Below are positions 2,957 to 7,768 of a DNA stretch of 64,000 nucleotides, piece by piece. Within the stretch, counting starts at the first letter, position 1. Each line of letters starts with the position of its first letter. The stretch spans positions 1-64,000 of the forward strand of contig CAUJDN010000033.1 of assembly GCA_963169195.1 (NCBI GenBank), written 5' to 3'. The translations under genes and the position numbers were made by a program. A model generated the notes under the pieces. It searched no databases. It saw only the letters and a program-made list of their open reading frames with translations, and was not told where the DNA came from. The DNA comes from Acidobacteriota bacterium. Its GTDB lineage: Bacteria; Acidobacteriota; Vicinamibacteria; Vicinamibacterales; UBA2999.

Positions 2957-3033
2957 TGGTAGGCACGGGCAGACTCGAACTGCCGACCTCCTGCGTGTCA
3001 AGCAGGCGCTCTAACCAACTGAGCTACGCGCCT
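2957..3033 (-). tRNA. tRNA-Val (anticodon GAC), CCA encoded
   Basis: The 77-base cloverleaf folds cleanly. The acceptor stem pairs 3033-3027 with 2967-2961 (one G-U). The D arm carries GCTCAGTTGGTTAGAGC. The anticodon stem CCTGC/GCAGG closes the loop TTGACAC with anticodon GAC, and the T arm GGCAG TTCGAGT CTGCC is perfect. The 3' CCA is in the DNA (2959-2957). It reads GUC codons, a common valine codon in this G+C-rich genome. It lies just upstream of thrS on the same strand. Confidence 0.96.
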
Positions 3034-3083: not shown

Positions 3084-4253
3084 CTACGCTGCCTTCTGGC
3101 CGGTCAGGCTTTCGATGGCCTTCTCGATCATGCCATCGCCGTCCGGTGGGGCCTGGCCGAATTCGAGGACTGGCTGCTCCACGGCGAGATCGGGGACGAG
3201 CCCCTTCTCGTGGAGGGCGCCGCCTCCAGGGAGCAGGTAATAGAGGTGCGTCAGCAGCAGCCCGCTGCCATCGGGCAGCTTCACGAGCTTCTGCCGGGCA
3301 GCCCGCCCCCTGGTGCGCTCGCCGACGATCTGTGCGCGCCGGTTGCCCTGGAGGGCCCCGGCGAACAGCTCCGCGGCGCCCGCCGTTCCGTTGTCGGCGA
3401 GCAGCGCCACCGGCAACGTGATGGCGCCGTCCCCGCTGGCCGTGGCGATGGGCTCCTTCTCCTTCCCGCGGTCCTGCCGAAACGCGAGGGTCCCGCTCGA
3501 CACGAAGAGCCGTGCGGCCGCGAGGCCCGTCTCGACGTCGCCGAACGCGTTGCCGCGCACGTCGATGACCAGCCGCGCGACGCCGGCCTTCTGGAGCGCC
3601 TCGGCCTCGCGCCGGACCTGCTCCGCGGTGTCGCGACCGAACTCCGGGACGCGGAGATAGCCCGTGCCTGGCGCGGCCACCCTTCCCTGGACGGCCAGGA
3701 CCGGCAGCGTTTCGCGCGCGAGCTCGACCTCGTGCGGCTCGGCCGCGTTACCCCGGAGCACGGTGAGGCGGACGGTCGTCCCGGGCTTGCCACCTAGCCG
3801 CCTCATGCCCTCGACGACCGACGTGTCGCGCGTGGACTGCCCGTCGATGGCGCGAATGTAGTCCCCGGGCTGCAGGCCCGCGCGCGCCGCGGGGGACCCG
3901 TCCCGCGCTGCGATGACCCGCAGGTAGTACTGCCGTGTGAGCTCGAGGCCCGTCTGGCCCTCGGCCGGCGCCTCGCCCTTCTCGAACGCCGCCACCTGCT
4001 CGACGTCCAGGTAGGCCGTGTCCGGGTCCAGCCCGTCGGCCAGACCGTGCATGGCCCCGTGCATGACCTTCTCCACGTCCACGTCCTCGACGTAGTTGTT
4101 CGTGATGAGCGTGACGACGTCCTCGAAGATGCGGAGGTGCTGGTAGCTCTCCTCCCGCGCCGCCATGGCCCTGCTCATGACGCCCCCGACCGCCGCGAAC
4201 ACGACGATGGGAATGGACAGGGCGAGCACGATGAGGCGGCCGCGTCGGTTCAT
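3084..4253 (-). CDS. CTP-like (S41) protein lacking catalytic Ser and Lys
   Basis: A 389-residue protein of the C-terminal processing peptidase family: an N-terminal signal anchor (about 4-28), an S41 N-domain, a PDZ domain (about 95-175) and an S41 core. The catalytic motif normally read as GTASASE is here GTAGAAE, with Gly at about residue 292 in place of the nucleophile. The motif normally read as GKG is GRA, with Arg at about 317 in place of the general base. It is therefore predicted to be a non-proteolytic scaffold. The ATG at 4253 overlaps the upstream stop as ATGA behind GGAG; an earlier ATG at 4271 is less likely. It is coupled to the EnvC-like gene, so a shared role in septal or peptidoglycan control is inferred. 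Confidence 0.88.
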   Translation of the reverse strand: MNRRGRLIVLALSIPIVVFAAVGGVMSRAMAAREESYQHLRIFEDVVTLITNNYVEDVDVEKVMHGAMHGLADGLDPDTAYLDVEQVAAFEKGEAPAEGQTGLELTRQYYLRVIAARDGSPAARAGLQPGDYIRAIDGQSTRDTSVVEGMRRLGGKPGTTVRLTVLRGNAAEPHEVELARETLPVLAVQGRVAAPGTGYLRVPEFGRDTAEQVRREAEALQKAGVARLVIDVRGNAFGDVETGLAAARLFVSSGTLAFRQDRGKEKEPIATASGDGAITLPVALLADNGTAGAAELFAGALQGNRRAQIVGERTRGRAARQKLVKLPDGSGLLLTHLYYLLPGGGALHEKGLVPDLAVEQPVLEFGQAPPDGDGMIEKAIESLTGQKAA

Positions 4254-5449
4254 GGTGAACTCCTGAGCCATTGTAGGGGATTGACGGGCCGGCCGTCGAC
4301 GCGCACCTCGAAGTAGAGGGCGGCGTTTCCGGCCGGAGCCAGCCCGGCCAGGCCGACGGCCTCGCCCCTCGCAATCGCCGTGTCGCGGACCACCAGCGCC
4401 TCGCGAAGGTGCCCGTACAACGTGAACGACTGGTGGCCGTGATCGACGATGACCAGCGTGCCGAAGCCGGCGAAGGGGGCCGCATACGCCACGCGCCCGC
4501 CGTGCACGGCCCGGACCCGGGTCCCTTCGTCGGCGGCGATCTCGATGCCGTTTCGGACGATCGACGTGCCGAATCGGCCTTCGCGGCTCGGGCCGAACCG
4601 CGACACGATCCGGCCCCGCACGGGCCAGTCCAGTGCGCCACGGAAGGGCTCGAACGGCAGGTCGGCCGGTGTGTCACCCATGTTGACGACGGCCTGTTGC
4701 AGCGCGGCCTGCGCCTGCTGCAGCTCGGCCACGTACTGCGCGGCCAGGTCGCGGCGCGCATCCAGCGCGTCGATGGCCGCGTTGCGCGCCCGCACCGTCC
4801 TCTCCAGGGCGGCCCGCGCGTCCGAGGCCGTCTGCTGAAGGCGTGCCACCTCGGCACGACGCGTCTCGAGGTCGGCCAGTGCCGTGCGCTCGGCGGCGAG
4901 CGTCCGCCGGTGTGTCTCGACGCGAACGCGATCGAGCGTGGCGACGGCGGCGACGCCGCGCGTCAACCGGCCGAAGGCGCGAGGGTCGTCCGCCGAGAGC
5001 AGGAGGCGCGCGTAGCCTCCGCGCCCTCGCTTGTAGATGGACACGAGTCGCTCGGCCACGCCCGGCGTATTGGCGACGCGCTCGGCCTCGAGGTCTGCCA
5101 CGCGCCGCGCCGCGACATCTCGATCCGCGGTCACCTGGACCAGCCGGGCATCGGCCGAGGCGACCTGCTCCTGGGCGATGGCGCGCGCGAGCGCGAGCGC
5201 GCGCAGGTCGGTGAGGAGCGTTCGGGCCCGGGCCGCCAGCTCGTCGGCTTCCTTCTGGAGGGCCCGGATCCGTTCCGTGGCCCGGGCGGCCAGCGCCTTC
5301 GCCGCGCCGGCGGTGGCCTGGCTCGGGGCGGGAAGCTTCGTCGTCCCGGGCGTCTGCGCGGCCCCGGACTCCTGACTCCCGGCCGGGACTGCCACGCCGG
5401 GTGTGACGATCCAGGCGGCAAGGCCCCACGCGAGAACACGGCGACGCAT
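4250..5449 (-). CDS. EnvC-like murein hydrolase activator (degenerate LytM/M23)
   Basis: 399 residues: signal peptide (from MRRRVLAWGLAAW), long coiled coil (about 45-270), then a LytM domain. All zinc ligands of active M23 enzymes are missing: HxxxD is RNGIE, and the HLHFEVR motif is ALYFEVRVDGRPVNPLQWL, closely like the C-end of EnvC. EnvC-type proteins do not cut peptidoglycan but activate N-acetylmuramyl amidases during cell division, with the coiled coil contacting FtsEX. That role is expected here. The open frame extends to 5620, but the start at 5449 gives the signal peptide and sits 9 bases after TACAAT. It is followed by the CTP-like gene with an ATGA overlap. Confidence 0.88.
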   Translation of the reverse strand: MRRRVLAWGLAAWIVTPGVAVPAGSQESGAAQTPGTTKLPAPSQATAGAAKALAARATERIRALQKEADELAARARTLLTDLRALALARAIAQEQVASADARLVQVTADRDVAARRVADLEAERVANTPGVAERLVSIYKRGRGGYARLLLSADDPRAFGRLTRGVAAVATLDRVRVETHRRTLAAERTALADLETRRAEVARLQQTASDARAALERTVRARNAAIDALDARRDLAAQYVAELQQAQAALQQAVVNMGDTPADLPFEPFRGALDWPVRGRIVSRFGPSREGRFGTSIVRNGIEIAADEGTRVRAVHGGRVAYAAPFAGFGTLVIVDHGHQSFTLYGHLREALVVRDTAIARGEAVGLAGLAPAGNAALYFEVRVDGRPVNPLQWLRSSP

Positions 5450-5474: not shown

Positions 5475-5795
5475 ATGCCGACGCCCCCGGAAACCGCCCC
5501 GGTGACCATCTCCCGGGGAGAGCTGCTCTGGTTGACCATCAGTACCTGGATCGGCGGGGTGTTCACACTGACGCTCTTGCCGATGCTCCTCGTGCCGAGG
5601 CTCGGGATCCCGGTCGGCATGGCCCTGTCCTACCTGGTGTTCTTCATCGAGTGGCAGCCGGTACAGCTCATCACGCAGCGCGTGCTGGGGACCAGCCCGA
5701 CCGTGATTCGCATGCTGGCCCTGGTCGCCAGCGCCGCGGCCGTGGCGTTCTACCTGCGCGACGTCCTGGCCGGCGCGGTCGCGGCTCCTTCGTAG
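5475..5795 (+). CDS. Small membrane protein, unknown function
   Basis: 106 residues, not recognised as a named family. Hydrophobic segments at about 16-38, 44-58 and 76-97 suggest three membrane spans. A TTG directly before the ATG gives an alternative start. The ATG lies six bases after TAAGAT, suggesting a leaderless mRNA. It is divergent from the EnvC-like gene, and its 3' end overlaps the converging AlkP-like gene by 46 bp. Nothing else codes in 5475-5749, which supports it as a real gene. Confidence 0.65.
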   Translation: MPTPPETAPVTISRGELLWLTISTWIGGVFTLTLLPMLLVPRLGIPVGMALSYLVFFIEWQPVQLITQRVLGTSPTVIRMLALVASAAAVAFYLRDVLAGAVAAPS

Positions 5796-7768
5796 TTCCG
5801 GGGACTGGCCGTGGCGAGGCGCGATGCGCCTTCGATCTCCGTGTCCGTCCGGCCGAAGTAGCCGAGGATGGTCGGGGCGACATCGAGCACGCTCAGCTCC
5901 GCCGTCGACAGGGGCACCGAGGACAGCCACACGCCGGGCACCGTGCGCTCGTCCACCGACGCGTGCTCCGCACTCCAGCGCTCGCGGTTCCGATCGATGG
6001 CCGCGGCGGCGGCCCCCCCCAGCAGGGTGTCCCAGCTGGTGCGGTAGCCCGGGGCGAAGGTGACGACGAGGTCCGGCGCGCCAGCGGCGTGTGGGCCCGT
6101 GAACAACTCCCGACCCTGGCGCACGCGCGACACGACCCGCCGTCCCGAGAGCGGATCGGTGAGCCCCTCCAGCCCTTCCCGTAGTCGCTGGATCACCGCG
6201 TCGTAGGCCGCCCCTGGCTCGACGGTTCCCCGCGCGTCGCGGCCACGCAGGTTGACGTAGATGTGCCCCGCCCCCATCGCCCGCGCGGTGGTCCGGCTCC
6301 AGTCCACCGTGTCCTCCCACAGCGAGGGATCGGGCAGGGCGGCGAGGGTCACTGGCGGTGGCGGTGCGTGCCACGCGAGCAGTCCCTCGCTGGTCAGCCA
6401 GCGGTTCAGATCCACGACGTGGCGTGCCGTGTACAGCCCGTAGGGGGACACCACCATGAGGTCCACGCCACGGGGCAGTCGCTCGCGAACCTGGCCGACG
6501 AGTTCGTCCAGCCTGAGATACATGCGCTCGATCGTGTCGGCCAGGCTGGGTGCCAACGCCCGGTCATGGGCCGCATGAGCGGGGTCGATGAACCGCCACA
6601 TCAGCCGGCCGGTCGTGTCAAGGGTCTCGATGCCGGCGACGATGAGGTGCCAGTCCGCCGCGTCCACGTGATTGAGCAGGGCCTCCGCGCGATCCGCGAA
6701 CGTCTCCTCCTGGGCGGCGACGAAGAGCGCATCGGGCAGCCATCCGTCCGCCAGCGCCCACCCCGCCTCCGGCCATGCCAGCGTGCGATAGGCGCCGAGG
6801 CGATCGAACAGCCGGGCGGCGGCCGACGCGGGGGCGGAGATGGGGGACGGCGGGGATGCGGGATGCCACTGCACGGGCGACACGTAGAGCCGGACATCGG
6901 TGCCGGCGTGGGCGAGATAGAGCTGCACGAGGCCGCGGACTCGCGTCAGGGCGCCGACGCGTGCGGAGACCTCGACCCATCGGCTGCGCTGCCCCTCGGC
7001 CAGGTACACCGACCCGTCCGCGATCTCCACGTTCGCGGAGCGCGCTTCGGGATTCCACGTCACCGTGAGGGGCAGGTCCACCCGTGCCGGCGCGCGGAGG
7101 CCCACCAGTGTGGTCCGCGCGATGCCGCGCGAGAAGGCGAGTCGCTCGACCCGGCCCCCATAGCGTGTCGGCCCCACCTGGGACGGTGGCACGTCGGAAG
7201 CCAGCCAGGTGTAGCCGGCGCCGAGGCCCCCGCCCCAGTCCGGGAGCGGCGTGCCCGCGATGAGGCTGCCGCGCGGGACGGGCAGCGGCGGGAAGGTTCC
7301 CGGCACGAAGAGGACGCGGGCACGCGCGCCAGCCCTTCCCAGGCTCACCCAGAAGGGCTCGGCGTCCACGACACGCGCGTACGCCGTACCGCCCGACCAC
7401 CATCGCCCGAACCACCGCCGGGACGCGCGCGGCTCGAGCGCAGCCGCTCGTGGCCGGCCCGTGACGGGGTCGGGCGTGATCAGGTCGAACACGCCGTGCC
7501 TGCCCGGGTTGACGCCCGTGGCCAGCGAGGCCCAGGCGGAAGCCGGCTCGGCACCCGGCGTCGACGTCACGCGCGCGATGCCTGAGGTGCGCGCCAGTTC
7601 GGCCAGGTGCGGCGCTCGCCCCTGCCGGATGAGCCGCTCCGTGATCTCGGGGTCCATGCCGTCCACGGCGAGGACGACGAGCCGCCGTGTCGACGGGCCC
7701 GGCGTGGGCGCGCACGCCATCGCGGCCAGCAGGGCGGCAGCCAGGCACAAGCTCCGCACGCCGCGCAT
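5750..7768 (-). CDS. Alkaline-phosphatase-superfamily lipoprotein (type I phosphodiesterase-like)
   Basis: 672 residues. A lipoprotein signal (LLAAMAC, Cys at about 19) is followed by a nucleotide pyrophosphatase/phosphodiesterase fold. VLAVDGMDP (about 32-40) carries the first metal Asp, SAWASLATGVNPGRHGVFD (about 77-95) the nucleophile region with Thr or Ser, and VSPYGLY and DVAPTILGYFG are late motifs. Such enzymes cleave phosphoesters at the envelope; the substrate is unknown. A GTG at 7759 is an alternative start and would sit nine bases after TATAAG, while the ATG at 7768 directly abuts it. It is divergent from ruvX. Confidence 0.8.
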   Translation of the reverse strand: MRGVRSLCLAAALLAAMACAPTPGPSTRRLVVLAVDGMDPEITERLIRQGRAPHLAELARTSGIARVTSTPGAEPASAWASLATGVNPGRHGVFDLITPDPVTGRPRAAALEPRASRRWFGRWWSGGTAYARVVDAEPFWVSLGRAGARARVLFVPGTFPPLPVPRGSLIAGTPLPDWGGGLGAGYTWLASDVPPSQVGPTRYGGRVERLAFSRGIARTTLVGLRAPARVDLPLTVTWNPEARSANVEIADGSVYLAEGQRSRWVEVSARVGALTRVRGLVQLYLAHAGTDVRLYVSPVQWHPASPPSPISAPASAAARLFDRLGAYRTLAWPEAGWALADGWLPDALFVAAQEETFADRAEALLNHVDAADWHLIVAGIETLDTTGRLMWRFIDPAHAAHDRALAPSLADTIERMYLRLDELVGQVRERLPRGVDLMVVSPYGLYTARHVVDLNRWLTSEGLLAWHAPPPPVTLAALPDPSLWEDTVDWSRTTARAMGAGHIYVNLRGRDARGTVEPGAAYDAVIQRLREGLEGLTDPLSGRRVVSRVRQGRELFTGPHAAGAPDLVVTFAPGYRTSWDTLLGGAAAAAIDRNRERWSAEHASVDERTVPGVWLSSVPLSTAELSVLDVAPTILGYFGRTDTEIEGASRLATASPRNYEGAATAPARTSRR

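Follow-up and report, generated by a model that had tools for sequence, protein, structure and literature searches.

In P. aeruginosa, the protease CtpA (PaCtpA) is encoded in the operon envC-ctpA-PA5135 (PMC12569750). It was shown that either S302A or K327A alone abolishes PaCtpA activity in vivo, that H84A reduces the activity and Q331A has a minor effect, and that P245-G247 is the substrate-binding strand; the LbcA-bound PaCtpA dimer consists of one active protomer and one that remains inactive (PMC11021448). The PDZ domain of B. subtilis CtpB takes ligands with a C-terminal Ala (Val-Pro-Ala), and through CtpB Arg168 the binding of a ligand to this domain is coupled to activation of the protease (PMC3808539). 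CtpB has an NDR-PDZ-S41 architecture with a Ser309-Lys334 dyad and a C-terminal extension, while H. pylori CtpA (HpCtpA), with its Ser300-Lys325-Gln329 intact, is a hexamer with an active face.

In this paper we looked at a CTP-family gene of an Acidobacteriota bacterium (GCA_963169195.1). The analysed DNA, called the window here, is a stretch of 64,000 nucleotides that sits on an 89.7-kb contig (CAUJDN010000033.1) of a 5.0 Mb genome, 97% complete. The gene (3084-4253, minus strand, as are the features given below unless no strand is stated) is an intact open reading frame of 389 amino acids, and its ATG at 4253 overlaps the stop codon of the upstream EnvC-like gene (ATGA). The encoded protein (the window CTP) is similar to PaCtpA in fold, in domain order and in its position after envC, and to CtpB in its NDR-PDZ-S41 architecture and retained carboxylate-binding loop; it differs from all three proteases in the residues needed for cleavage. 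In the literature searched we found no paper that deals with dead CTPs or CTP pseudoproteases, or with EnvC-CTP pairs of Acidobacteriota, an absence which is no proof of novelty.

Domains and catalytic residues of the window CTP

The window CTP matches Peptidase_S41 (1.8e-35) and PDZ (9.8e-12) in Pfam, where PDZ_6 at residues 113-167 followed by the Peptidase_S41 core at 197-358 are above the cut-off; with NCBIfam TIGR00225 (prc) it reaches 199.1 bits, below the curated cut-off of 218.6. The closest solved structures by sequence are PaCtpA (the best PDB match, 180 bits), HpCtpA and CtpB. The hydrophobic N-terminal helix (4167-4235; Kyte-Doolittle mean 2.68 over 19 amino acids) is a predicted signal or anchor, which would place the protein in the periplasm, anchored to the membrane. 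The window CTP and the active acidobacterial CTP of ~540 amino acids both have a CtpB_N-like N-terminal region. The window CTP lacks the C-terminal extension that active CTPs have, and its C-terminus is shorter than that of PaCtpA. The median length in the family of short acidobacterial orthologues (the dead family) is 391 amino acids, compared with 440-554 for the canonical active CTPs, a range that leaves out one active CTP cut by a contig end at 400.

The structural model was predicted with alignment-based AF2 (pLDDT 93.1, pTM 0.86; single-sequence AF2 gave pLDDT 43). Its best structural matches are HpCtpA (9ku0 and 9jr1, Z 38) and PaCtpA (Z 37.7; 8sxe and 7rpq are among the best matches). 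The model is nearer to resting CtpB (4c2e, Z 35.8, rmsd 3.3) than to active CtpB (4c2c, Z 24.6, rmsd 6.1), a likeness that may be a preference of AF2 for any CTP. The S41 fold is also matched by RBP3/IRBP, the interphotoreceptor retinoid-binding protein (Z 16-18), which is known for ligand binding and not for proteolysis; this is a vertebrate protein of tandem modules that differs in lacking the CTP PDZ arrangement and has an unrelated role.

Alignment with PaCtpA puts Gly292 (codon GGC, 3378-3380) at the nucleophile Ser302 and Arg317 (CGG, 3303-3305) at the general base Lys327. An earlier sequence-only reading had described a CTP-family protein with an intact frame, in which both catalytic residues are replaced at about these positions while the PDZ domain and fold motifs are kept; the two positions were exactly right, and the Pfam matches, the column comparison below, the AF2 model and its structural matches agree with the rest. 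Asp78 (4020-4022) takes the place of His (PaCtpA His84, HpCtpA His85), and NAFG (residues 235-238; 3540-3551) replaces the NPGG substrate-strand/oxyanion motif of active CTPs, which is the P245-G247 strand in PaCtpA. Among the PaCtpA residues that were mutated (Ser302, Lys327, His84 and Gln331), the Gln alone is kept, as Gln321 (3291-3293), and this residue is Gln in 85% of the dead family.

The columns of 111 dead-family sequences were compared with those of 14 canonical active CTPs. Ser is found at the nucleophile column in 4% of the dead and 100% of the active sequences, Lys at the base column in 1% and 100%, and His at the His84-equivalent column in 2% and 86%; in the NPGG strand, Pro236 is found in 1% and 86% and Gly237 in 21% and 100%. 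Asp231, Arg233, Glu295, Gly311 and Gly316 are invariant in the two groups and therefore look structural. In the dead family the Lys column is freely variable, with R, L, A, Q, S, T, V, M, E, D and other residues in it, which is what one would expect of a site where no function is selected. Within the same order, Lys is missing from this column in all readable orthologues, and nearly all of them have Gly, Asn, Gln, Arg, Ala or Tyr in the Ser column. Judging from these residues, the catalytic apparatus is lost and the window CTP is probably a pseudoprotease, from which no proteolysis would be expected. A Ser/Lys pair shifted to another part of the protein was also looked for and is rejected by the columns of the orthologue alignment.

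Phylogeny and selection

Orthologues are found in the families of its order, in further families of the class and across the Acidobacteriota; by a rough reading ~112 of the 119 genomes of the class have an orthologue, and those without are mostly less complete assemblies. Both Ser and Lys are absent in 106 of 111 representative acidobacterial orthologues, whereas all 23 readable CTPs from outside the phylum keep S/K/Q, so the loss is not a matter of chance. In a 127-row tree the 14 canonical active CTPs, including the acidobacterial one of ~540 amino acids, all group together (SH-aLRT 100). In a 67-row tree rooted on active CTPs, all short CTPs of Acidobacteriota form one clade (100/99), and the canonical active CTPs, EnvC-linked or not, are all on the opposite side. 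An active canonical paralogue exists in the window's own genome (L214) and in most of the sampled genomes; dead and active CTPs share ~26-32% identity and have no co-operonic link.

The dead CTP is under purifying selection across Acidobacteriota, with dN/dS values of 0.07-0.29 (pairwise Nei-Gojobori, 12 pairs). Residues 280-330, which include the dead site, have the lowest or near-lowest pN in most pairs, and nearly all copies of the gene are free of stop codons. It had been suggested from the sequence that the gene is probably not decaying and that its product is probably used as a scaffold or decoy. The former stands, as the losses are shared through the phylum under these dN/dS values and are not a unique event with relaxed selection; the latter is plausible, because the fold and the PDZ domain are retained and may serve binding.

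In the order f41 (order/family, L253-L268), 10 of 16 readable members are SKQ and the others are AKQ, GKQ, SRQ or GRQ. These intermediates indicate that the dyad is being lost repeatedly in f41, where proteolysis may persist since most members keep Ser and Lys. This makes the order useful for the study of stepwise dyad loss (SK, AK, GK, SR and GR). The short CTP of the family f16 (L122-L127) has CRP at the three sites: the nucleophile is replaced by Cys, the base by Arg and the Gln by Pro. These genes lie in a different neighbourhood with no envC.

The C-terminal tail and the PDZ domain

The window CTP ends with Lys-Ala-Ala-COOH (3087-3095), a tail that sequence comparison finds conserved across the phylum. 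Among non-redundant dead-family proteins, 104 of 161 end with -AA-COOH and 64 of 161 with -KAA (102/154 and 63/154 in a fixed locus set). As shares of the dead family these ends amount to 66% and 41%, compared with 0.4% and 0% of background ORFs (4/1084 and 0/1084 among the other ORFs of the same loci, taken from a simple length/GC3 ORF caller). Homologues of the neighbouring genes (thrS, mltG, ruvX, pde, envC and infC) have an AA end in one case out of 425. A general C-terminal bias as the source of -KAA is rejected by these background and neighbour counts. Orthologues use a full mixture of codons for K-A-A and for the stop, which indicates that selection acts on the protein. Measured from the start of the last conserved helix, the C-terminal stretch of the proteins that end with AA is 14 to 32 residues long. 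In f41 the AA end is present in 15 of 15 members, among them proteins whose dyad is intact; the tail therefore does not depend on the loss of catalysis, and the -AA tail probably predates this loss. It was found in none of the canonical active CTPs sampled.

The PDZ domain (3753-3956) retains the carboxylate-binding loop (CtpB Gly113-Ala116, residues 100-103 in the window CTP), in which Gly102 is 98% conserved and its neighbours are hydrophobic. After this loop, at 106-110, the motif [TS][RK][RQ][YF][YF] is common in the dead family and is not seen in active CTPs. At the position of CtpB Arg168 the window CTP has Gly (Gly154) and half of the dead family has Arg, so ligand recognition may have changed. 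Such a pattern would fit a domain which has retained ligand binding without driving catalysis any longer. Since CTP PDZ domains bind C-termini that end in Ala, the -KAA tail is most simply read as a PDZ-type ligand that engages a neighbouring copy of the same protein, leading to self-assembly, or else the active CTP. The tail points to a specific recognition event, and an event of this kind was not found in the literature searched.

The envC neighbourhood and the proposed function

The gene that overlaps the start of the window CTP (4250-5449) encodes an EnvC-like amidase activator of the LytM/M23 type (Peptidase_M23 1.3e-20), whose best NCBIfam match is EnvC with 99 bits, below the equivalog cut-off of 270. 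Its LytM domain looks degenerate, with RNGIE and LYFEVR compared with the HxGxD-like and LHFEVR motifs of catalytic M23 proteins, which fits an amidase activator and not a hydrolase. Upstream of envC there is a type I phosphodiesterase/nucleotide pyrophosphatase-like gene (5750-7768), and such a gene recurs just upstream of envC in several deep lineages. Directly downstream of the window CTP is tRNA-Val(GAC) (2957-3033), and beyond it come thrS (953-2884, no strand stated) and infC, a conserved neighbourhood. In the recurrent context envC is often preceded by the phosphodiesterase-like gene, with divergent ruvX-mltG on the upstream side and thrS-infC on the downstream side; the window has the same order.

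In many lineages the dead CTP is encoded within ~100 bp after envC, and in other phyla we find ftsX-envC-ctpA with an intact, active-type CtpA; by its position after envC the dead CTP is thus the CtpA of that operon. An ftsX gene beside the dead CTP was not found in the Acidobacteriota loci that were read; in the window's own genome ftsX is on contig C14, and two Amidase_3 genes are present. Twenty-four genomes were tested, chosen partly by EnvC adjacency, so that the match between FtsX and EnvC in them is no random-sample correlation: all 10 genomes with FtsX have EnvC, and all 14 without FtsX keep the dead CTP. These 14 (G103, G091, G053, G054, G105, G111, G248, G204, G170, G225, G206, G257, G194 and G176) lack the FtsX extracellular domain and full-length EnvC, and have short LytM-domain matches or none. 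The FtsX-EnvC module has apparently been lost jointly in several lineages of Acidobacteriota. As the dead CTP is retained there, EnvC cannot be its sole partner and FtsX-EnvC is not needed for it.

Taken together, the retention of the gene, the selection on it and the conserved tail suggest that the protein works by binding and not by cutting. We lean, with modest confidence, to the view that it is the CtpA-type CTP of an ancestral envC-ctpA operon that is now a membrane-anchored pseudoprotease binding envelope proteins via its PDZ domain. It would be held by its anchor in the inner membrane, face the periplasm and use this domain to capture the C-termini of envelope proteins, of which cell-wall hydrolases or their activators would be the likeliest class, and would hold or sequester them without cutting. 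EnvC would be a likely partner where it is present, proteolysis would be done by the canonical active CTP encoded elsewhere in the genome, and the -KAA tail would engage the PDZ domain of a neighbouring copy or of the active CTP. A bolder version, which we put forward only tentatively, is that of a phylum-wide pseudoprotease with -KAA as its PDZ ligand, which self-assembles tail-to-PDZ or docks on the active CTP as a regulator that does not cut, in a control of cell-wall hydrolases that needs no proteolysis and has outlived FtsEX-EnvC.

Other explanations were weighed against binding of envelope proteins. One option, which we consider doubtful, is a heterotypic regulator: the dead CTP would pair via its N-terminal dimerisation region with the active CTP of ~540 amino acids, as a permanently inactive protomer or adaptor with its -KAA tail in the PDZ domain of the active partner. 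The half-inactive dimer of LbcA-bound PaCtpA (PMC11021448) and the binding of Ala-ending ligands such as Val-Pro-Ala by CtpB (PMC3808539) speak for such a pair, as do the N-terminal region common to both CTPs, the active paralogue in most of the sampled genomes and the likeness of the AF2 model to resting protomers; the low identity between the two, their separate loci and the missing C-terminal extension speak against it. The gene overlap with envC, the EnvC adjacency across many families and the FtsX and two Amidase_3 genes of the window's genome could instead point to a scaffold dedicated to EnvC, which would bind EnvC and tune amidase activation in the FtsEX-EnvC control of division. This is quite unlikely in view of the 14 genomes that keep the dead CTP without FtsX and full-length EnvC, which also speak against an EnvC-only form of the scaffold suggested earlier.

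It is very improbable that the protein still acts as a protease by means of a different nucleophile or base, or that it is some other kind of hydrolase. In a few members the nucleophile position still holds Ser, or it holds Cys (the CRP proteins of f16), and f41 mostly retains Ser and Lys, but the window CTP has Gly and Arg, its His and NPGG strand are lost too, and the substitutions at the Lys column vary freely, unlike a conserved new catalytic group. A decaying gene that is still open by chance can be practically dismissed, as it has the loss of the catalytic residues in its favour and nothing more; such a pseudogene is rejected by the dN/dS values together with the phylum-wide retention, and the near absence of stops and the mixing of synonymous codons at a constant tail are also against it.

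The likely annotation of such genes, 'S41 family peptidase', would be wrong for the dead clade. That 14 genomes retain the dead CTP although FtsX and EnvC are both missing gives a lead on how septal wall hydrolysis is controlled in these lineages. Research on CTPs treats them as proteases of the envelope by which cell-wall hydrolases are tuned; in this case the Acidobacteriota as a phylum appear to keep the body of the protein in the envC operon and to discard its catalysis. The dead CTP is thereby a natural case in which binding and cutting by a CTP are separated, and offers testable material.
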